Below are positions 2,837 to 37,201 of a stretch of 45,375 nt of DNA, one piece after another. The notes beneath the pieces were generated by a model. The model did no database searches and was not told where the DNA came from. It was given only the letters and a program-made list of their open reading frames with translations. The stretch is from Candidatus Hikarchaeia archaeon HikBin5 (GTDB lineage Archaea; Halobacteriota; Halobacteria; Halobacteriales; Hikarchaeaceae): the NCBI GenBank assembly GCA_009889625.1, contig WTZU01000009.1, positions 1 to 45,375 of the forward strand. Direction: 5' to 3'. The first letter of the stretch is position 1, and each line of letters opens with the position of its first letter. A program made the position numbers and the translations under genes.

Positions 2837-4501
2837 ATGGATGGAAATAGATTAATTGCTACAGAGAGGTTAATTATTATATCGAAAATTGGTTGTGAGA
2901 ATCAAATTAAAGAGATACAAGATTGGGCAATAGAAAAAGGACTACAAATTTCATCCATCCAAATTGGAGATGAATTAAAAGATGAAGATTTGGTAGAAGG
3001 GGGGAAAATCGTCGGGATAACATTAGGAGGGGATGGGACATTTCTAGAGGGCGTGAGATTGTTCGCCCCAAATAAAATTCCATTTGTTGGAGTCGGTCTA
3101 GGAACGTTATCATTCTTAGCCAATACAGAATCAGAAAGGATCCTTGATGCGTTGGAAGAAATAACAAAAGGGAGGGGAAAGATTGAACAACGCCAAAGGG
3201 TTGAGATAGAAGTTGATTCATTTAAGTCAGAGGGACTTAATGAGGTAGTCATAGGACATATTTGGCCAAAAAAACCAACTGAAAGAAAAATCAGCTGCAT
3301 CAATATATTTGCAGATGGGGAATACATGGGCAAGTATGAAGGGACAGGGGTGGCAGTTACGACCCCAACAGGTTCAACTGGACTCTCTCTTTCTGCCGGA
3401 GGACCAATACACCACCCACATTTAAATAAAACAGTTCAGTTGACTCCATTGCATACACACACTATAGGAGTTCGACCAGTGGTGTTTGGTGCAGATGTAA
3501 AACTTGAGATGATTCCTGAAACCGAAGTATATGTCTTGGTTGACGGAGGGAGGGCAACAAACCTTATCAAAACTAAAAATAAGATTAGCATTACAGGTGC
3601 TGATATCCCAGCATATTTGATTAAAACCTCAGTTAGTAGAGAGTTTTTTTCTAGATTGGAAGAAAATTTAGGATGGGGATTGAGGCACCTGAATGAAGGA
3701 AATTATGAAAATAATAAAAAAATAAAACATAGTTTTGAGGAGAAGGCTTTAGAATTGGCCAAGAATGTTTGTATGGGCTCGGGTGATGTTCTCAGGGAGT
3801 TGCATAGGAGAGATGGGATGGAAATATTTGAAAAAGAAAATGGAAATGGTCCAGTGACGGAAGCGGATTATCTTTCCGAGAAAATAATTACATCACTAAT
3901 CCGCTTAGAATTTCCAGATCATGATATAGTATCAGAAGAAACTGTTTGGGAAGATAATGGTGCGAGATACAAATGGGTAATAGACCCATTAGATGGCACT
4001 GGTAATTTCATACATAGCAATCCAAATTATTCTATTTCGGTTGCGTTATTGGAAGAAAACGAACCCATAATCGGGGTCATCTACATTCCAGAAATTGATC
4101 AATTATATTCAGCAAGGAGAGGAGGAGATGCACGAGTAAATGGTAATAAAATTCAAACAACTGATAGGGGAATTTTCAAGGAGAGTATGTTGATAACTGG
4201 GCATGATCCAGATGGTGAATTTAAATCTAGTTTATATTCACAAGTAAAGGGCGTAAGGAGATATGGTTCTGCTGCAATCAATCTAGCATACTTGGCACAA
4301 GGAAGTGCGGATATAGTATGGGAATGGGATACTAGTCCGTGGGATGTTGCCGCGGGCGTATTACTTGTTAAATGCGCAGGTGGAAAGGTTACCGATAAAA
4401 AGGGAGAGGATTACAAATTAAACTTCGGATTGGAACGCCCGAATGAATTAATAGCGTCTAATGGTCAGCTTCATGAAGACATCATTGCCCAATTGGAATG
4501 A
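2837..4501 (+). CDS. fusion of NAD kinase (N-terminal) and inositol-monophosphatase/NADP-phosphatase-like domain (C-terminal)
   Basis: One uninterrupted 554-residue frame holds two enzymes. Residues ~1-295 are an NAD kinase: GGDGT (64-68), the loop GVGLGTLSF (~86-94), and TPTGSTGLSLSAGGP (~175-189). Residues ~300-554 are an IMPase-fold phosphatase: TEADYLSEK (~342), the metal motif IDPLDGTGNF (~382), and the C-terminal EWDTSPWDVAAG (~496), with the metal-binding Asp/Glu residues present. The kinase would make NADP from NAD. By analogy with methanogen fusions that carry both activities, the phosphatase may reverse the reaction on NADP, though inositol phosphate or fructose bisphosphate are also possible substrates. 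The gene follows thiolase by 3 nt and ends 6 nt before the convergent antiporter gene. Confidence 0.9.
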   Translation: MDGNRLIATERLIIISKIGCENQIKEIQDWAIEKGLQISSIQIGDELKDEDLVEGGKIVGITLGGDGTFLEGVRLFAPNKIPFVGVGLGTLSFLANTESERILDALEEITKGRGKIEQRQRVEIEVDSFKSEGLNEVVIGHIWPKKPTERKISCINIFADGEYMGKYEGTGVAVTTPTGSTGLSLSAGGPIHHPHLNKTVQLTPLHTHTIGVRPVVFGADVKLEMIPETEVYVLVDGGRATNLIKTKNKISITGADIPAYLIKTSVSREFFSRLEENLGWGLRHLNEGNYENNKKIKHSFEEKALELAKNVCMGSGDVLRELHRRDGMEIFEKENGNGPVTEADYLSEKIITSLIRLEFPDHDIVSEETVWEDNGARYKWVIDPLDGTGNFIHSNPNYSISVALLEENEPIIGVIYIPEIDQLYSARRGGDARVNGNKIQTTDRGIFKESMLITGHDPDGEFKSSLYSQVKGVRRYGSAAINLAYLAQGSADIVWEWDTSPWDVAAGVLLVKCAGGKVTDKKGEDYKLNFGLERPNELIASNGQLHEDIIAQLE

Positions 4502-24294: not shown

Positions 24295-26370
24295 ATGACT
24301 TCTCCCCTCCCTCTCGAAGACGCAATTACGAGGCCTATTTTTTGGGAGATAGGGTCTGTTGGGAAGCTTTTATTTTATTATTTGGCCCTCGTAGGTTCTA
24401 TTATATTCTTAAATGGCATCCGCTTACGATTAAATCGTTATGCGTCCGGGCGTGAGGACCCCATTGACCGATTGGATAATCTTCCCCATAGGATATTTTA
24501 TTCACTCAAATTCATCGCACGAAACACAGGCCAGTTCGATAGGGATCTTTATGCAGGTATTATGCACAGCCTCATCCTTTGGGGATTTCTCACTCTAACG
24601 ATCGGAACTACTATTCTCGCTATAGATATTGATTTATATCGTAATTTAACAAAAAAATCATTTTTTGTTGGTGACTTTTATCTAGTTTATTCTTTTGTCA
24701 TGGATGCACTAGGGTTTCTTTTGGTCATTGGGATTTTGATGGTCATTTATCGTAGATATTTTGTAAGAACAAAAAGACTACACGGTAAACATACTAGCCT
24801 GGAAGACAATCTGTTTGTTTTTTCATTACTTTATCTTTGTGTGGGCGGGTATCTCCTAGAAGGGATACGGATACTAGGGCAAGAATTTCCACCATTTGAG
24901 AAAGTCAGTTTTGTAGGTTGGTTTGTCGCATTAATACTTTCAAAAATCGGCATTTCGCCCCTGGCATCTCAATCTATATATCCCCTATTTTGGTGGGCCC
25001 ATGTGTTAATTGGCGGTTTATTCACAATATTGATTCCTTATGCAAAACCATTCCATATGTTCTCTAGCTTGGCGAACGTAATAGCTCGAGATGAGTTATC
25101 CGGCATCCGTCTCCCTAGGATCCCTGAAAATGCTTTGCCGTCCGAAATAGGACCTAGTAGCATCGAAGATTTTTCCTGGAAACAATTACTTGACCACGAC
25201 GCCTGCACAAAATGCGGACGTTGTTCATCTGTTTGCCCGGCAAAAGCTTCTGGAAGAGAATTAGATCCTAGAGATGTGATTTTAGATCTAAAACGTTACA
25301 AAGACGAACTAGATCTAGGGATAGAATCCAAACGTCCTATCATCGCAGACGGTGGGAGTGTCATCTCAATAACCTCTATGGAAGCATGCATGTCATGTTT
25401 GGCTTGTGTGGACGCCTGCCCAGTTGGAATTGAACATGTGACTCAATTTACAGATATGAACCGTAGACTCGTCGAATCTGGACAAATCAATGAGAATCTA
25501 CAATCTATTATGATGGATATGTTCACACATGGAAATTCATTTGGTATCTCTGAGAGAAAAAGACCAGAATGGACTAATGATCTCCCCTTCTCCATACCCG
25601 ATGCCCGCGATTCAAAAGTAAAATATCTGTGGTATGTCGGAGATTTACCTAGTTATGATCCACGTAATCAAAAAATAGCAAAAGCTCTCGCACATATCTT
25701 CCATGAGACTGGAATTTCATACGGAATTTTATATGATTCCGAAAAAAATGATGGGAATGACGTCCGGAGAATAGGCGAAGAAGGATTATATGAAATGTTG
25801 ACAGAAACCAATATCGACTCATTCAATCAATGTGATTTTGAAATCATAGTATGCACAGATCCTCACTCTTATAACACCATCAAAAACGAATATCCTCAAT
25901 TTGGATTCAACGCAGATGTTCGCCATTACACTGGTGTTTTACAGGACCTAGTCAATTCTGGAATCCTAAAAATACCCAATTCTTTAAACTATTCAGTTAC
26001 TTACCACGATCCTTGCCATCTTGGTAGATATAACCATGAATACGACGCCCCTCGGGAAATCATAGAAAAAACTGGCTGTATTTTACATGAAATGCCACGA
26101 AATCGAAGAAATGCATTTTGTTGTGGTGGGGGTGGTGGCGGGATTTGGATGGATTTCCCAAACACAATAAAACCATCCGAAGAAAGACTACGAGAGGCGA
26201 TCGAAGACACTCCCGACTTAGTGGAGAAATTCGTTGTTTCTTGCCCTCAATGCATGACAATGTATGAAGATGGTAGAAAAACAGGTGGGTTCGAAAATCA
26301 ACTTGAAATCATAGATGTAGCAGAATTAGTAGCAGAAGCAATCATAACTAACAATCTCACCAAAGTGTAA
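24295..26370 (+). CDS. membrane Fe-S oxidoreductase, probable ETF:quinone oxidoreductase (NarI-like + 4Fe-4S + CCG domains)
   Basis: A 691-residue protein. Residues ~20-265 form a NarI-like membrane domain with about five or six helices, expected to bind haem. Two 4Fe-4S motifs follow, CTKCGRCSSVCP (~303) and CMSCLACVDACP (~364), then two HdrD-like CCG domains. The second CCG domain is intact: DPCHLGRY (~572), CCGGGG (~608), CPQC (~649). The first is degenerate, with VGDLPS, EKNDGNDVRR and CTDPHSYNT where relatives have cysteines. Proteins of this architecture (FadF/EMO type) move electrons from ETF to menaquinone during beta-oxidation. The fit with the thiolase and acyl-CoA ligase is good, but no etf genes lie in the window. 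Confidence 0.88.
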   Translation: MTSPLPLEDAITRPIFWEIGSVGKLLFYYLALVGSIIFLNGIRLRLNRYASGREDPIDRLDNLPHRIFYSLKFIARNTGQFDRDLYAGIMHSLILWGFLTLTIGTTILAIDIDLYRNLTKKSFFVGDFYLVYSFVMDALGFLLVIGILMVIYRRYFVRTKRLHGKHTSLEDNLFVFSLLYLCVGGYLLEGIRILGQEFPPFEKVSFVGWFVALILSKIGISPLASQSIYPLFWWAHVLIGGLFTILIPYAKPFHMFSSLANVIARDELSGIRLPRIPENALPSEIGPSSIEDFSWKQLLDHDACTKCGRCSSVCPAKASGRELDPRDVILDLKRYKDELDLGIESKRPIIADGGSVISITSMEACMSCLACVDACPVGIEHVTQFTDMNRRLVESGQINENLQSIMMDMFTHGNSFGISERKRPEWTNDLPFSIPDARDSKVKYLWYVGDLPSYDPRNQKIAKALAHIFHETGISYGILYDSEKNDGNDVRRIGEEGLYEMLTETNIDSFNQCDFEIIVCTDPHSYNTIKNEYPQFGFNADVRHYTGVLQDLVNSGILKIPNSLNYSVTYHDPCHLGRYNHEYDAPREIIEKTGCILHEMPRNRRNAFCCGGGGGGIWMDFPNTIKPSEERLREAIEDTPDLVEKFVVSCPQCMTMYEDGRKTGGFENQLEIIDVAELVAEAIITNNLTKV

Positions 26371-26990: not shown

Positions 26991-27905
26991 ATGAAAAAAA
27001 AGAAGGTAATTACACTCGCAGTTGAGGATTCTCCTTCTTCTATTCAACATTTGAATATTATCAAAACAAAACTCGAATCCAGAAATTACACTTTGGAGTT
27101 ACAAAAAATAGAAGCTCCCAATCCATCCAATTCAAAAAATTTAGCAGAGTATGTCCAGAAACAAAAACAATCTATAGAATCTCTACACGATCTAATCCTC
27201 AACTCCGAAGTCGATGGAGCAGCATATAATATGATTCACGCCCCGTTAACGCTTCCTGGGGAACTAATTTTATCTGGTACAATCAGACAAGATGTAGTAC
27301 GGGATATCTTACTTACCACTGATGGAGGATCTTTAACCAATTTGTCCTCTAATAAAATAGTCGGGATTTCGAACCACCGAAATAGTCTTCAACTTAAATC
27401 CGTCCGTGAAGATCTCGAACAAGAATTTTCATTCGAGAATATATATTCGAAATTTCAAGATTGGTTTTCAAACAATCCCTCTTCAAAAGCACTAATACTC
27501 TCCTCTGAAGAATTCAACACATATGATTTTTCAAAAAATACAAAAGGCTTTTTCCTCCCCCCTCGAACTTTCGTCCCAGCACCTTGCCAGGGTACTTTTT
27601 CAATCATTTCCATAGACGATACTAAATCTACTACTAATATCCATAATTTAATAGACAACCCCCGAGCCAGGGTTGAAACAATAATTGAAAAAATCATATC
27701 TTCTTCTCTTAATCAAAATATAATCCAATCAGCAGGTATCCATGCCATTGTAAAAGGAGAGGCCATCACTGTGATGATTCAATTATTCAATTATCCTTCT
27801 CAAAAACATATCAATCTACATCAAGATCTGCCCATCAGAACTTATTTTGAATCTGCAAAAGAGCTAGCCAACAAATTGAATAAGATGGTGAGTGATTTTG
27901 ACTGA
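26991..27905 (+). CDS. HemC (porphobilinogen deaminase)-like protein lacking catalytic and cofactor residues
   Basis: A ~304-residue protein with the full length and fold landmarks of hydroxymethylbilane synthase. NKIVGISNHRNSLQL matches the VGTSSLRRQ region, FVPAPCQGTFSI matches FVPAPGQGALA, and IDNPRARVETIIEKI matches the helix before the cofactor loop. The functional residues are gone. VHSxKD, with the catalytic Asp, reads AYNMIHAP; GGGC, the cofactor-attachment cysteine, reads LNQNII; and SLRGN, with its Arg, reads FSFEN. It is unlikely to make hydroxymethylbilane. Start ATG 26991 follows from homology; the frame is open further upstream. It overlaps the next gene by 14 nt, so the two are probably co-transcribed. 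Confidence 0.75.
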   Translation: MKKKKVITLAVEDSPSSIQHLNIIKTKLESRNYTLELQKIEAPNPSNSKNLAEYVQKQKQSIESLHDLILNSEVDGAAYNMIHAPLTLPGELILSGTIRQDVVRDILLTTDGGSLTNLSSNKIVGISNHRNSLQLKSVREDLEQEFSFENIYSKFQDWFSNNPSSKALILSSEEFNTYDFSKNTKGFFLPPRTFVPAPCQGTFSIISIDDTKSTTNIHNLIDNPRARVETIIEKIISSSLNQNIIQSAGIHAIVKGEAITVMIQLFNYPSQKHINLHQDLPIRTYFESAKELANKLNKMVSDFD

Positions 27906-29352
27906 TTCGGCAATTTCACAACTACAGAATAGGGCAGACCAATGTGCAAATTATTTATTAGATTCAAAATCTGTTTTATGCATTTCCCATATAGACGCAG
28001 ACGGACTTACCAGTGCAGCAATAGCAACACAAGCGATCCAACGTGCAAATATACCCTTGGAAACTGCATTTTCTAAACGTTTAGGAGAACCTGAATTAAA
28101 ACAACTAACAAAAACAGACCACGAAACGATTCTCTTCACAGATTTTGGAAGTGGACAGATAGAAAAAATAATAGAATACAGTGAAAAAGGTAATTTTAAT
28201 CCTATCATTTGCGATCACCACCAACCATCAATTGCACCTTCTAGTAATTCTCATACTTTGATAGATCTTGATTTTCATTTAAATCCTCTTTTATTCGAAA
28301 TCGACGGGGCCTCGGAGCTCTCTGGCGCTGGAACTTGTTATTTCCTTGCCAGGGCATTGGAATCTGGCTCAGTTGACAATAGGGATTTAGCTTCCCTCGC
28401 AGTTGTAGGTGCAATTGGAGACATGCAGGCGAGAGACAAAGGATTAATCGGGCCTAATAAAATTATCGCACAAGAAGGAGTGGATAAAGGTGTATTGGAT
28501 ATCAAACTCGATTTAGCATTTTATGGGAAACAAACTAGACCTCTTCCAAAATTACTAGAGTATTCTTCTGAATTCGGAATACCTAGCATTTCCAATAATC
28601 CCTCTGGTTCGATCCGATTCTTAAAAAATTTAGACATCGATGTACGTGAAAATGGAAAATGGAAATTTTGGGTAGATCTTTCTCACTCAGATAAAAAAGC
28701 AATAGTAAATGAACTAGTCAAACATGCCATATCTCGTGGCCTTTCTATAGACAAAATCAGTTCTTTTATTTCTCCTGTTTATGAACTAACACAAGAACTA
28801 TCGGGAACAGCACTACGCGAAGCCACCGAATTTTCTACTATATTAAATGCAACTGCCAGATACGGGCGCCCCGATGTGGGGCTGTCTATCTGCCTAGGCA
28901 ATCGAAATAAATCTCTTACCCGGGCTAAAAATTTATTAGCCGTCCATAGAAAAAATCTAGCCGAGGGAATTGGTTTACTCAACCGAGAAGGTGTTGTAAT
29001 GGAAGAAAATTTCCAATGGTTCCATGCACAAGATAAAATTCGAGACACAATTGTAGGAATTGTAGCTGGAATGGTATTGGGTATGGATGGAACTGATCCA
29101 AACAAACCAATCTTTGCTTTTGCAAAAACAGAAGAAGGCGATTTAAAAGTATCTTCTCGCGGAACTCCTATTCTTGTCAAAAATGGATTAAATTTATCCG
29201 AAGTAATGAGAATATCTGCAGAACATGTTGGAGGTGAAGGCGGTGGGCATGACATAGCAGCTGGTGCAACCATACCTTTGCAAACAGAAAAATTATTCCT
29301 TGAACAAATCAAAACCACACTCGAACTCCAACTCTATAATTCATCATCATAA
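27892..29352 (+). CDS. RecJ-like DHH-family exonuclease (GAN-type)
   Basis: A 486-residue archaeal DHH phosphoesterase. The motifs are HIDADGLTSA (~33), LFTDFGSG (~81), CDHHQPS (~106) and the DHHA1 motif GGHDIAAG (~448). The archaeal homologues (GAN) associate with GINS and the CMG helicase and degrade single-stranded DNA or RNA. The start is GTG 27892, overlapping the HemC-like gene by 14 nt; the next gene begins 2 nt after its stop. The gene is complete, with all metal ligands present. Alternative RecJ paralogues or c-di-AMP/nanoRNA phosphodiesterase roles are possible but less likely for this length. Confidence 0.92.
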   Translation: MILTDSAISQLQNRADQCANYLLDSKSVLCISHIDADGLTSAAIATQAIQRANIPLETAFSKRLGEPELKQLTKTDHETILFTDFGSGQIEKIIEYSEKGNFNPIICDHHQPSIAPSSNSHTLIDLDFHLNPLLFEIDGASELSGAGTCYFLARALESGSVDNRDLASLAVVGAIGDMQARDKGLIGPNKIIAQEGVDKGVLDIKLDLAFYGKQTRPLPKLLEYSSEFGIPSISNNPSGSIRFLKNLDIDVRENGKWKFWVDLSHSDKKAIVNELVKHAISRGLSIDKISSFISPVYELTQELSGTALREATEFSTILNATARYGRPDVGLSICLGNRNKSLTRAKNLLAVHRKNLAEGIGLLNREGVVMEENFQWFHAQDKIRDTIVGIVAGMVLGMDGTDPNKPIFAFAKTEEGDLKVSSRGTPILVKNGLNLSEVMRISAEHVGGEGGGHDIAAGATIPLQTEKLFLEQIKTTLELQLYNSSS

Positions 29353-35554: not shown

Positions 35555-36268
35555 CTAAAGTCCACCTTTTGTACTTGGGGCCCCCGCCCTTCTTTCATCT
35601 ATTTGACTCGCATCATCAATCCCTCTACCAACTGCCTTGAATAATGCTTCCACTTCGTGATGTGCATTTTTGCCCTTTACAGAACAATGTAATGTCACTC
35701 CTGCATTCATGGCAAAACTTCTAAAAAAATGAGGAGCCATGCCCGATGTAAAATCGCCCACTTGCTCTTCACTAAATGTTCCTTCAAATGCAAAGTATGG
35801 TCTCCCACTAATGTCTAATACTGCCGAAGCGACCGCTTCGTCCATTGGGATATTCCTCTCTGCGAAACGGATTATTCCATGCTTATCTCCCCACGCCGCA
35901 TTAAATGCCTTTCCTAACACTATCCCTACATCTTCTATAGTATGGTGACAATCAACATTTATATCCCCAATCGCCTGAACAGATAGATCAAATAACCCAT
36001 GAGTGGCAAATGCCTCTAACATGTGGTCAAAAAAACCTATGCCCGTGTCTATCTTTGCATTTCCCTTACCATCTATATTCAATATCAGATTTATATTAGT
36101 TTCATTAGTTTCTCTTGATAACTCCGCCTTTCTCACTATCAAACCATCTCTCTGGACTAGATCTTTTCCTTCCTCTTTCACAATCTCCGTTCTCGCTTTA
36201 CAATATCTTTTGTGAGTTCCAATTCCCCTTTCTGAAAAACTACGATTGCAATATTCACAAGTTGGCAT
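35555..36268 (-). CDS. hisB: imidazoleglycerol-phosphate dehydratase HisB with N-terminal C2HC zinc finger
   Basis: A 237-residue protein whose last ~193 residues are a complete HisB that dehydrates imidazoleglycerol-phosphate in histidine synthesis. The motifs are [17 protein letters not shown] (~79), [10 protein letters not shown] (~107), [12 protein letters not shown] (~203) and the C-terminal [13 protein letters not shown]. Ahead of it lies an in-frame extension of ~44 residues with a C2HC-type finger, [20 protein letters not shown] (Cys4, Cys7, His19, Cys23). An internal GTG at 36134-36136 (V45) could give a conventional HisB, so two products are possible. The ATG at 36268 has a TATA-like box 23-30 nt upstream. 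hisA is the next gene upstream on the same strand. Confidence 0.9.
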
Positions 36269-37102: not shown

Positions 37103-37201
37103 GCGTTTCGGTTTGTCTTACTCCAGGTAAAGTCACCGCTTTCTACCTCACTAAAATCAGAACAGCAAGATCTAACAATACCCGCGTAAAATAAACACCC
37201 G

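Follow-up and report, generated by a model that had tools for sequence, protein, structure and literature searches.

A HemC-like protein lacking catalytic and cofactor residues, a probable pseudoenzyme maintained in marine Hikarchaeia

The HemC-like gene and its surroundings

The analyzed stretch of DNA, in the following referred to as the window, comprises 45,375 nucleotides and belongs to a genome of the haloarchaeal order (Marine Group IV / Hikarchaeia; 1.07 Mb, 70.5% complete). Positions 26991–27905 of the forward strand hold a single uninterrupted reading frame of 304 amino acids with zero stops, overlapped at its end by a gene encoding a RecJ-family nuclease. The features of this locus are:

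26991–27905 (+): HemC-like gene of a probable pseudoenzyme, 304 aa, hydroxymethylbilane synthase orthologue without catalytic Asp and cofactor Cys
27237–27239 (+): His83, where active HemC carries the catalytic Asp (E. coli D84, B. megaterium D82); shared by all four species
27585–27587 (+): Cys199, the sole cysteine, invariant in all four species, adjoining the retained pocket residues Q200-G201 (E. coli Q198-G199)
27720–27722 (+): Ile244 (Leu in the three relatives), replacing the cofactor cysteine (E. coli C242)
27892–29352 (+): archaeal RecJ-family (GAN-like) nuclease gene, probably starting with TTG at 27898 and overlapping the last nucleotides of the HemC-like gene

Further features of the window were recorded as well. 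An open reading frame of 554 aa at 2837–4501 (+) reads like an NAD kinase fused to an inositol-monophosphatase domain. At the N-terminus of a HisB-like protein encoded at 35555–36268 (−; L032 17646–18338), a CxxC...HxxxC segment of 24 letters resembles a small zinc finger; the relatives have it too. The stretch between the divergent hisA-like and ferredoxin genes (37103–37201) is identical to genome G001 at 89 of 99 bases, the highest value among eight intergenic stretches compared (20–90%).

The encoded protein matches the Pfam family PF01379 with 55.3 bits (cut-off 22.1), and TIGR00212 covers its residues 14–297 with an E-value of 4e-19. Together with the 304-aa reading frame, these matches confirm the claim of an earlier note that a full-length HemC homologue is encoded here. 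The equivalog score of TIGR00212 is missed by a wide margin (68.7 bits vs. a cut-off of 164), whereas an intact HemC from the haloarchaeal order reaches 266 bits. Nearest solved structures are the porphobilinogen deaminases of B. megaterium and E. coli.

Orthologues in four Hikarchaeal species

Searching genome contigs with an alignment yielded orthologues in three relatives (HikBin4, a Marine Group IV archaeon, and two genomes named Halobacteriales archaeon), whereas a single protein as query retrieved none. Each of the four species covered from this Hikarchaeal genus carries exactly one HemC, a weak, full-length match with an intact frame in the same place, and the window protein is 56–59% identical to its three orthologues. 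Searches covering 197 genomes from the phylum and 394 from the order brought up no further close relatives. The four genomes, all of them incomplete (58–78%), were also searched for an intact hemC elsewhere, as the earlier note had proposed, and no second HemC was present. Spread by phage was rejected, there being no match in phage records, and a fold search retrieved no HemC among viral proteins.

Position and gene order point to the origin of the gene. The HemC-like gene and recJ are adjacent and overlapping in all four species, the overlap amounting to 4 nt in three of them and, for a RecJ start at TTG 27898, to 8 nt in the window. In genomes of the haloarchaeal order, the order hemC-hemD-recJ (G031 and G017) or hemC-cobA-hemD-recJ (G008) was observed, and in Hikarchaeia hemD and cobA are gone from between the HemC-like gene and recJ. 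As judged from sequence and gene order, the gene is the vertically inherited old hemC in its old place, from which the intervening genes were lost. Since relatives have the arrangement hemC-(cobA)-hemD-recJ, the adjacency to recJ is itself inherited, and it was rejected as evidence of a functional link to RecJ on its own. The region 24295–26370 (+) encodes an iron-sulfur protein of 691 aa that combines a cysteine-rich (CCG) domain with a nitrate-reductase-gamma-like region; in haloarchaeon G008, too, a homologue is located close to hemC (L083 8818–10002).

Divergence of the two neighbours differs considerably. For HemC, the window and ALOHA proteins share 23–28% identity with haloarchaeal copies vs. 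50–57% among intact copies; for RecJ, Hikarchaeal and haloarchaeal proteins share 51–54%, compared with 62–80% among the comparison set.

Loss of active-site and cofactor residues

The catalytic aspartate (E. coli D84) is replaced by His83 in all four Hikarchaeal species, and the cofactor-anchoring cysteine (E. coli C242) by Ile or Leu at position 244. For comparison, 53 intact archaeal HemC proteins were gathered by an HS.KD-type motif. This search fixes H, S, K and D in advance, whereas the cofactor Cys and most arginines did not enter it. Accordingly, the aspartate in 53 of 53 of these proteins is a product of the collection; the cysteine is likewise present in 53 of 53. Among the carboxylate-binding arginines for cofactor and substrate (R11, R131, R132, R149, R155 and R176 in E. 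coli numbering), R131 alone is kept, the others reading R11->E, R132->N, R149->F/L, R155->K/Q and R176->T/P. The losses of catalytic and cofactor residues are common to all four species and hence are not an artefact of a single genome.

The motif readings of the earlier note were reproduced by alignment: VHSMKD aligns with YNMIHA, the GGGC cofactor loop with LNQNII, in which the cysteine has become I244, and SLRGN with FSFEN. Its statement that every functional motif is replaced holds for these three motifs and is slightly overstated otherwise, as the E. coli pocket positions represented by S14, S127, R130, L170, Q200 and G201 are still occupied alike. Each of the four proteins has a single cysteine, C199, which lies within FVPAPCQG and not in the cofactor loop.

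Of 44 columns invariant across the 53 intact proteins, 11 are retained in Hikarchaeia, 11 carry another invariant residue (R12E, H79Y, D83H, S128N, R131N and others) and 22 vary, among them K82, R148, R154 and the cofactor cysteine at 244 (I/L). Residues newly fixed in the Hikarchaeal protein are E12, Y79, H83, N128-H129-R130-N131 and C199. Pocket positions were taken from E. coli HemC (PMC3945110, Table 1), complemented by C242, and mapped by motif alignment. Among the orthologues, 14 of 29 of these positions are invariant vs. 137 of 275 elsewhere (p = 1), and a specially conserved new pocket is therefore unsupported. Neither particular conservation nor particular decay marks the old HemC pocket. 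A pocket-based role thus gains no positive support, which weakens, without excluding, the tetrapyrrole sensing proposed in the earlier note.

Selection and rate of change

Pairwise dN/dS values of the HemC-like gene (NG86) range from 0.13 to 0.21 among the four species. Distant pairs have dS above 1, near saturation, and the weight rests on close pairs, the closest of which gives a 95% range of 0.07–0.20 at dS 0.21. Differences are distributed 12/8/36 over the codon positions, i.e., 36 of 56 fall on third positions, and dN/dS is below 0.3 in each of the three domains for the pairs computed. The gene is clearly constrained, with all three domains under purifying selection. It nevertheless ranks among the faster genes of its neighbourhood (dN/dS of neighbours 0.01 to 0.20), evolving quicker than most of them.

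In the gene tree, most change lies on the long stem leading to the Hikarchaeal proteins (3.5 plus 1.0 substitutions per site) and less in their crown (0.03–0.6); with a stem of this length, the exact attachment point is unreliable. The region upstream of the gene is 64% identical between the window and G001, inside the 20–90% range of seven other intergenic stretches, and an unusually conserved promoter was rejected on this basis. Genomes of this group are streamlined, with 93–94% coding density (PMC7599335), so that a useless gene of 915 bp would be unexpected.

Tetrapyrrole pathway and use of heme

Enzymes surrounding HemC in its pathway were searched for in the four Hikarchaeal genomes. HemA (glutamyl-tRNA reductase, GluTR), HemB, HemD, CobA/SUMT and AhbD were found in none of them; for GluTR, HemB and HemD (0/4 genomes) the named control searches were positive. 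Thus, neither HemB before HemC nor HemD or SUMT after it was detected. HemL models gave one hit per genome at about 140 bits vs. a cut-off of 527; the match in G000, the one scanned individually, is of ArgD type by NCBIfam (best 407.8 bits, just under the model cut-off of 410). TP-methylase matches occurred in two genomes, the one in G000 being the diphthine synthase Dph5. An AhbD-like match in G000 represents MoaA, and the AhbD-like match in G002, which is shorter, appears to be orthologous to it. That the pathway is absent is a statistical statement, because the four genomes are only 58–78% complete; the chance that one given gene was missed in all four is 0.008.

Heme-copper oxidase subunit I (COX1) is encoded in all four genomes. 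These cells hence need heme and apparently cannot make it, and heme auxotrophy combined with heme use is likely from these incomplete genomes. The main text of the Hikarchaeia papers searched (including PMC7599335) does not mention heme auxotrophy. A short CtaA-like protein occurs in three of the four genomes (L046, L047, L048); at 153–166 aa, these proteins are roughly half as long as the family profile.

Predicted structure

The best AlphaFold (AF2) model of the HemC-like protein reached a pLDDT of 84 and a pTM of 0.82, the other four models having pLDDT values of 56–65. It was computed from an eight-sequence alignment in which four HemCs of viral contigs were added to the four orthologues. 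When only the orthologues were aligned, pLDDT dropped to 40 and the model was unusable, so that the predicted fold is partly carried by the HemC rows. With these relatives included, the protein is predicted to adopt the three-domain HemC fold. Superposition, a check suggested in the earlier note, placed HemC chains at all of the top 32 PDB matches (TM-score normalised by query 0.73–0.79). After HemC, the model matches LysR effector and periplasmic-binding folds (Foldseek E-value about 1e-7, TM-score 0.3–0.5).

Interpretation

Based on residue losses, selection and pathway context, the protein is most probably a HemC pseudoenzyme that was orphaned when its pathway disappeared, diverged strongly along a very long stem branch, became constrained and was kept as a non-catalytic protein. 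Fold and selection are kept and catalytic residues are lost across the clade, which supports the interpretation as a pseudoenzyme already put forward in the earlier note. Likewise, its derivation from a true haloarchaeal-type hemC gains support from homology, gene order, the lack of another hemC, pathway loss and purifying selection in four species. The two outcomes that would have contradicted that note, a functional Asp and Cys in place or a decaying pseudogene, were both tested, and neither was observed.

A functionless pseudogene in slow decay would accord with the very long stem, with a rate above that of most neighbours and with catalytic residues lost after the pathway. This reading is very improbable and was rejected on intact frames and dN/dS: the frames are free of stops and frameshifts in four species, all three domains are constrained, the dN/dS of the closest pair is well below the value near 1 of a decaying gene, and differences fall mainly on third codon positions. 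Continued activity as hydroxymethylbilane synthase with other residues, e.g., C199 as cofactor anchor and H83 in acid-base catalysis, is hardly conceivable. C199 is invariant and adjoins pocket residues, and the fold is retained; however, a HemB to supply porphobilinogen and a HemD or CobA to use the product were not found in the four incomplete genomes. Moreover, the protein has Asn at R132 and His at D84, and in the E. coli enzyme cofactor binding is affected by R131L or R132L, and the reaction stalls with D84A/N (PMC3945110). Residues and pathway together led to the rejection of this alternative.

For the pseudoenzyme, the following course is proposed. Hikarchaeia would have lost tetrapyrrole synthesis, leaving over a vertically inherited hemC of the haloarchaeal lineage. 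The remnant should be unable to make hydroxymethylbilane, since it lacks a cofactor anchor and a supplier of porphobilinogen was not found. Recruitment for another job is probable. The remnant might work as a bilobal binder or partner resembling periplasmic-binding proteins, and a new ligand may use the newly fixed residues.

Quite possibly, as one specific form of this reading, the protein acts on an unrelated small molecule, by binding it or turning it over, or serves as a structural subunit of some complex. Many ligands are bound by proteins of the type II periplasmic-binding / LysR-effector fold, which is also that of HemC domains 1 and 2, and invariant residues are spread across all three domains instead of being concentrated in the old pocket; the gene neighbourhood, however, gives no pointer to a ligand or partner. 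The foremost candidate ligand is heme, or a different tetrapyrrole obtained by scavenging, because the cells encode a heme-copper oxidase and apparently cannot make heme. The HemC cleft held six pyrroles. A carrier or sensor in a heme-scavenging cell, holding imported heme in the cleft, e.g., via H83 or H129, and handing it to oxidase assembly or reporting it, is a rather unlikely specific form of the pseudoenzyme reading. It would suit the oxidase in four of four genomes without detected heme synthesis, as well as the invariant H83 and H129 and the retained R130, Q200 and G201 at or beside pocket positions. Against it stand the loss of most carboxylate-binding arginines, a pocket that is not preferentially conserved and the lack of recognised heme-transport neighbours in the gene cluster. 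That the Hikarchaeal hemC became such a carrier or sensor with a histidine replacing the catalytic aspartate is doubtful; if true, a biosynthetic enzyme would have turned into a handling protein for its own lost product. A role as partner or regulator of the RecJ-family nuclease, likewise a specific form of the pseudoenzyme reading, is improbable: the overlap and adjacency of both genes in four of four species favour it, but the hemC-(cobA)-hemD-recJ history explains them, and RecJ is only mildly accelerated in this lineage, as seen from its identity to haloarchaeal RecJ.

Loss of a pathway usually removes all of its genes. Here, one enzyme gene of a lost pathway persists without its active site in every species examined, within a genome that is streamlined and dense in coding sequence. 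This would be a clear example of an orphan enzyme that took on another role. Furthermore, the remnant suggests that an aerobic marine class of archaea is auxotrophic for heme. No HemC pseudoenzyme was reported in the literature searched, and the Hikarchaeia papers searched are likewise silent on it.

Comparison with known systems

With HemC as defined by PF01379 and TIGR00212, the Hikarchaeal protein shares length, three-domain fold, full-length homology and the ancestral gene order with recJ downstream. It differs in lacking the catalytic Asp, the cofactor Cys, the active-site Lys83 and the pocket arginines except R131 (R232 is partly kept), and its genomes show no other enzyme of the pathway. 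Haloarchaeal HemC of the hemC-(cobA)-hemD-recJ cluster (loci L079, L080, L083) resembles it in genomic position and, most closely, in the VPAPxQG motif and in domain 3, and the insertion of the haloarchaeal protein possibly leaves a trace (xWF); hemD and cobA, however, are missing beside the Hikarchaeal gene, and identity is far below that among intact copies. LysR effector domains and type II periplasmic-binding proteins share the fold of the two N-terminal domains, but no sequence relation was found and no DNA-binding domain was matched. Eukaryotic Cdc45 is an inactive relative of RecJ. As in this and other pseudoenzymes, catalytic residues are lost while fold and selection are retained, whereas in Hikarchaeia the rest of the pathway was lost around HemC.
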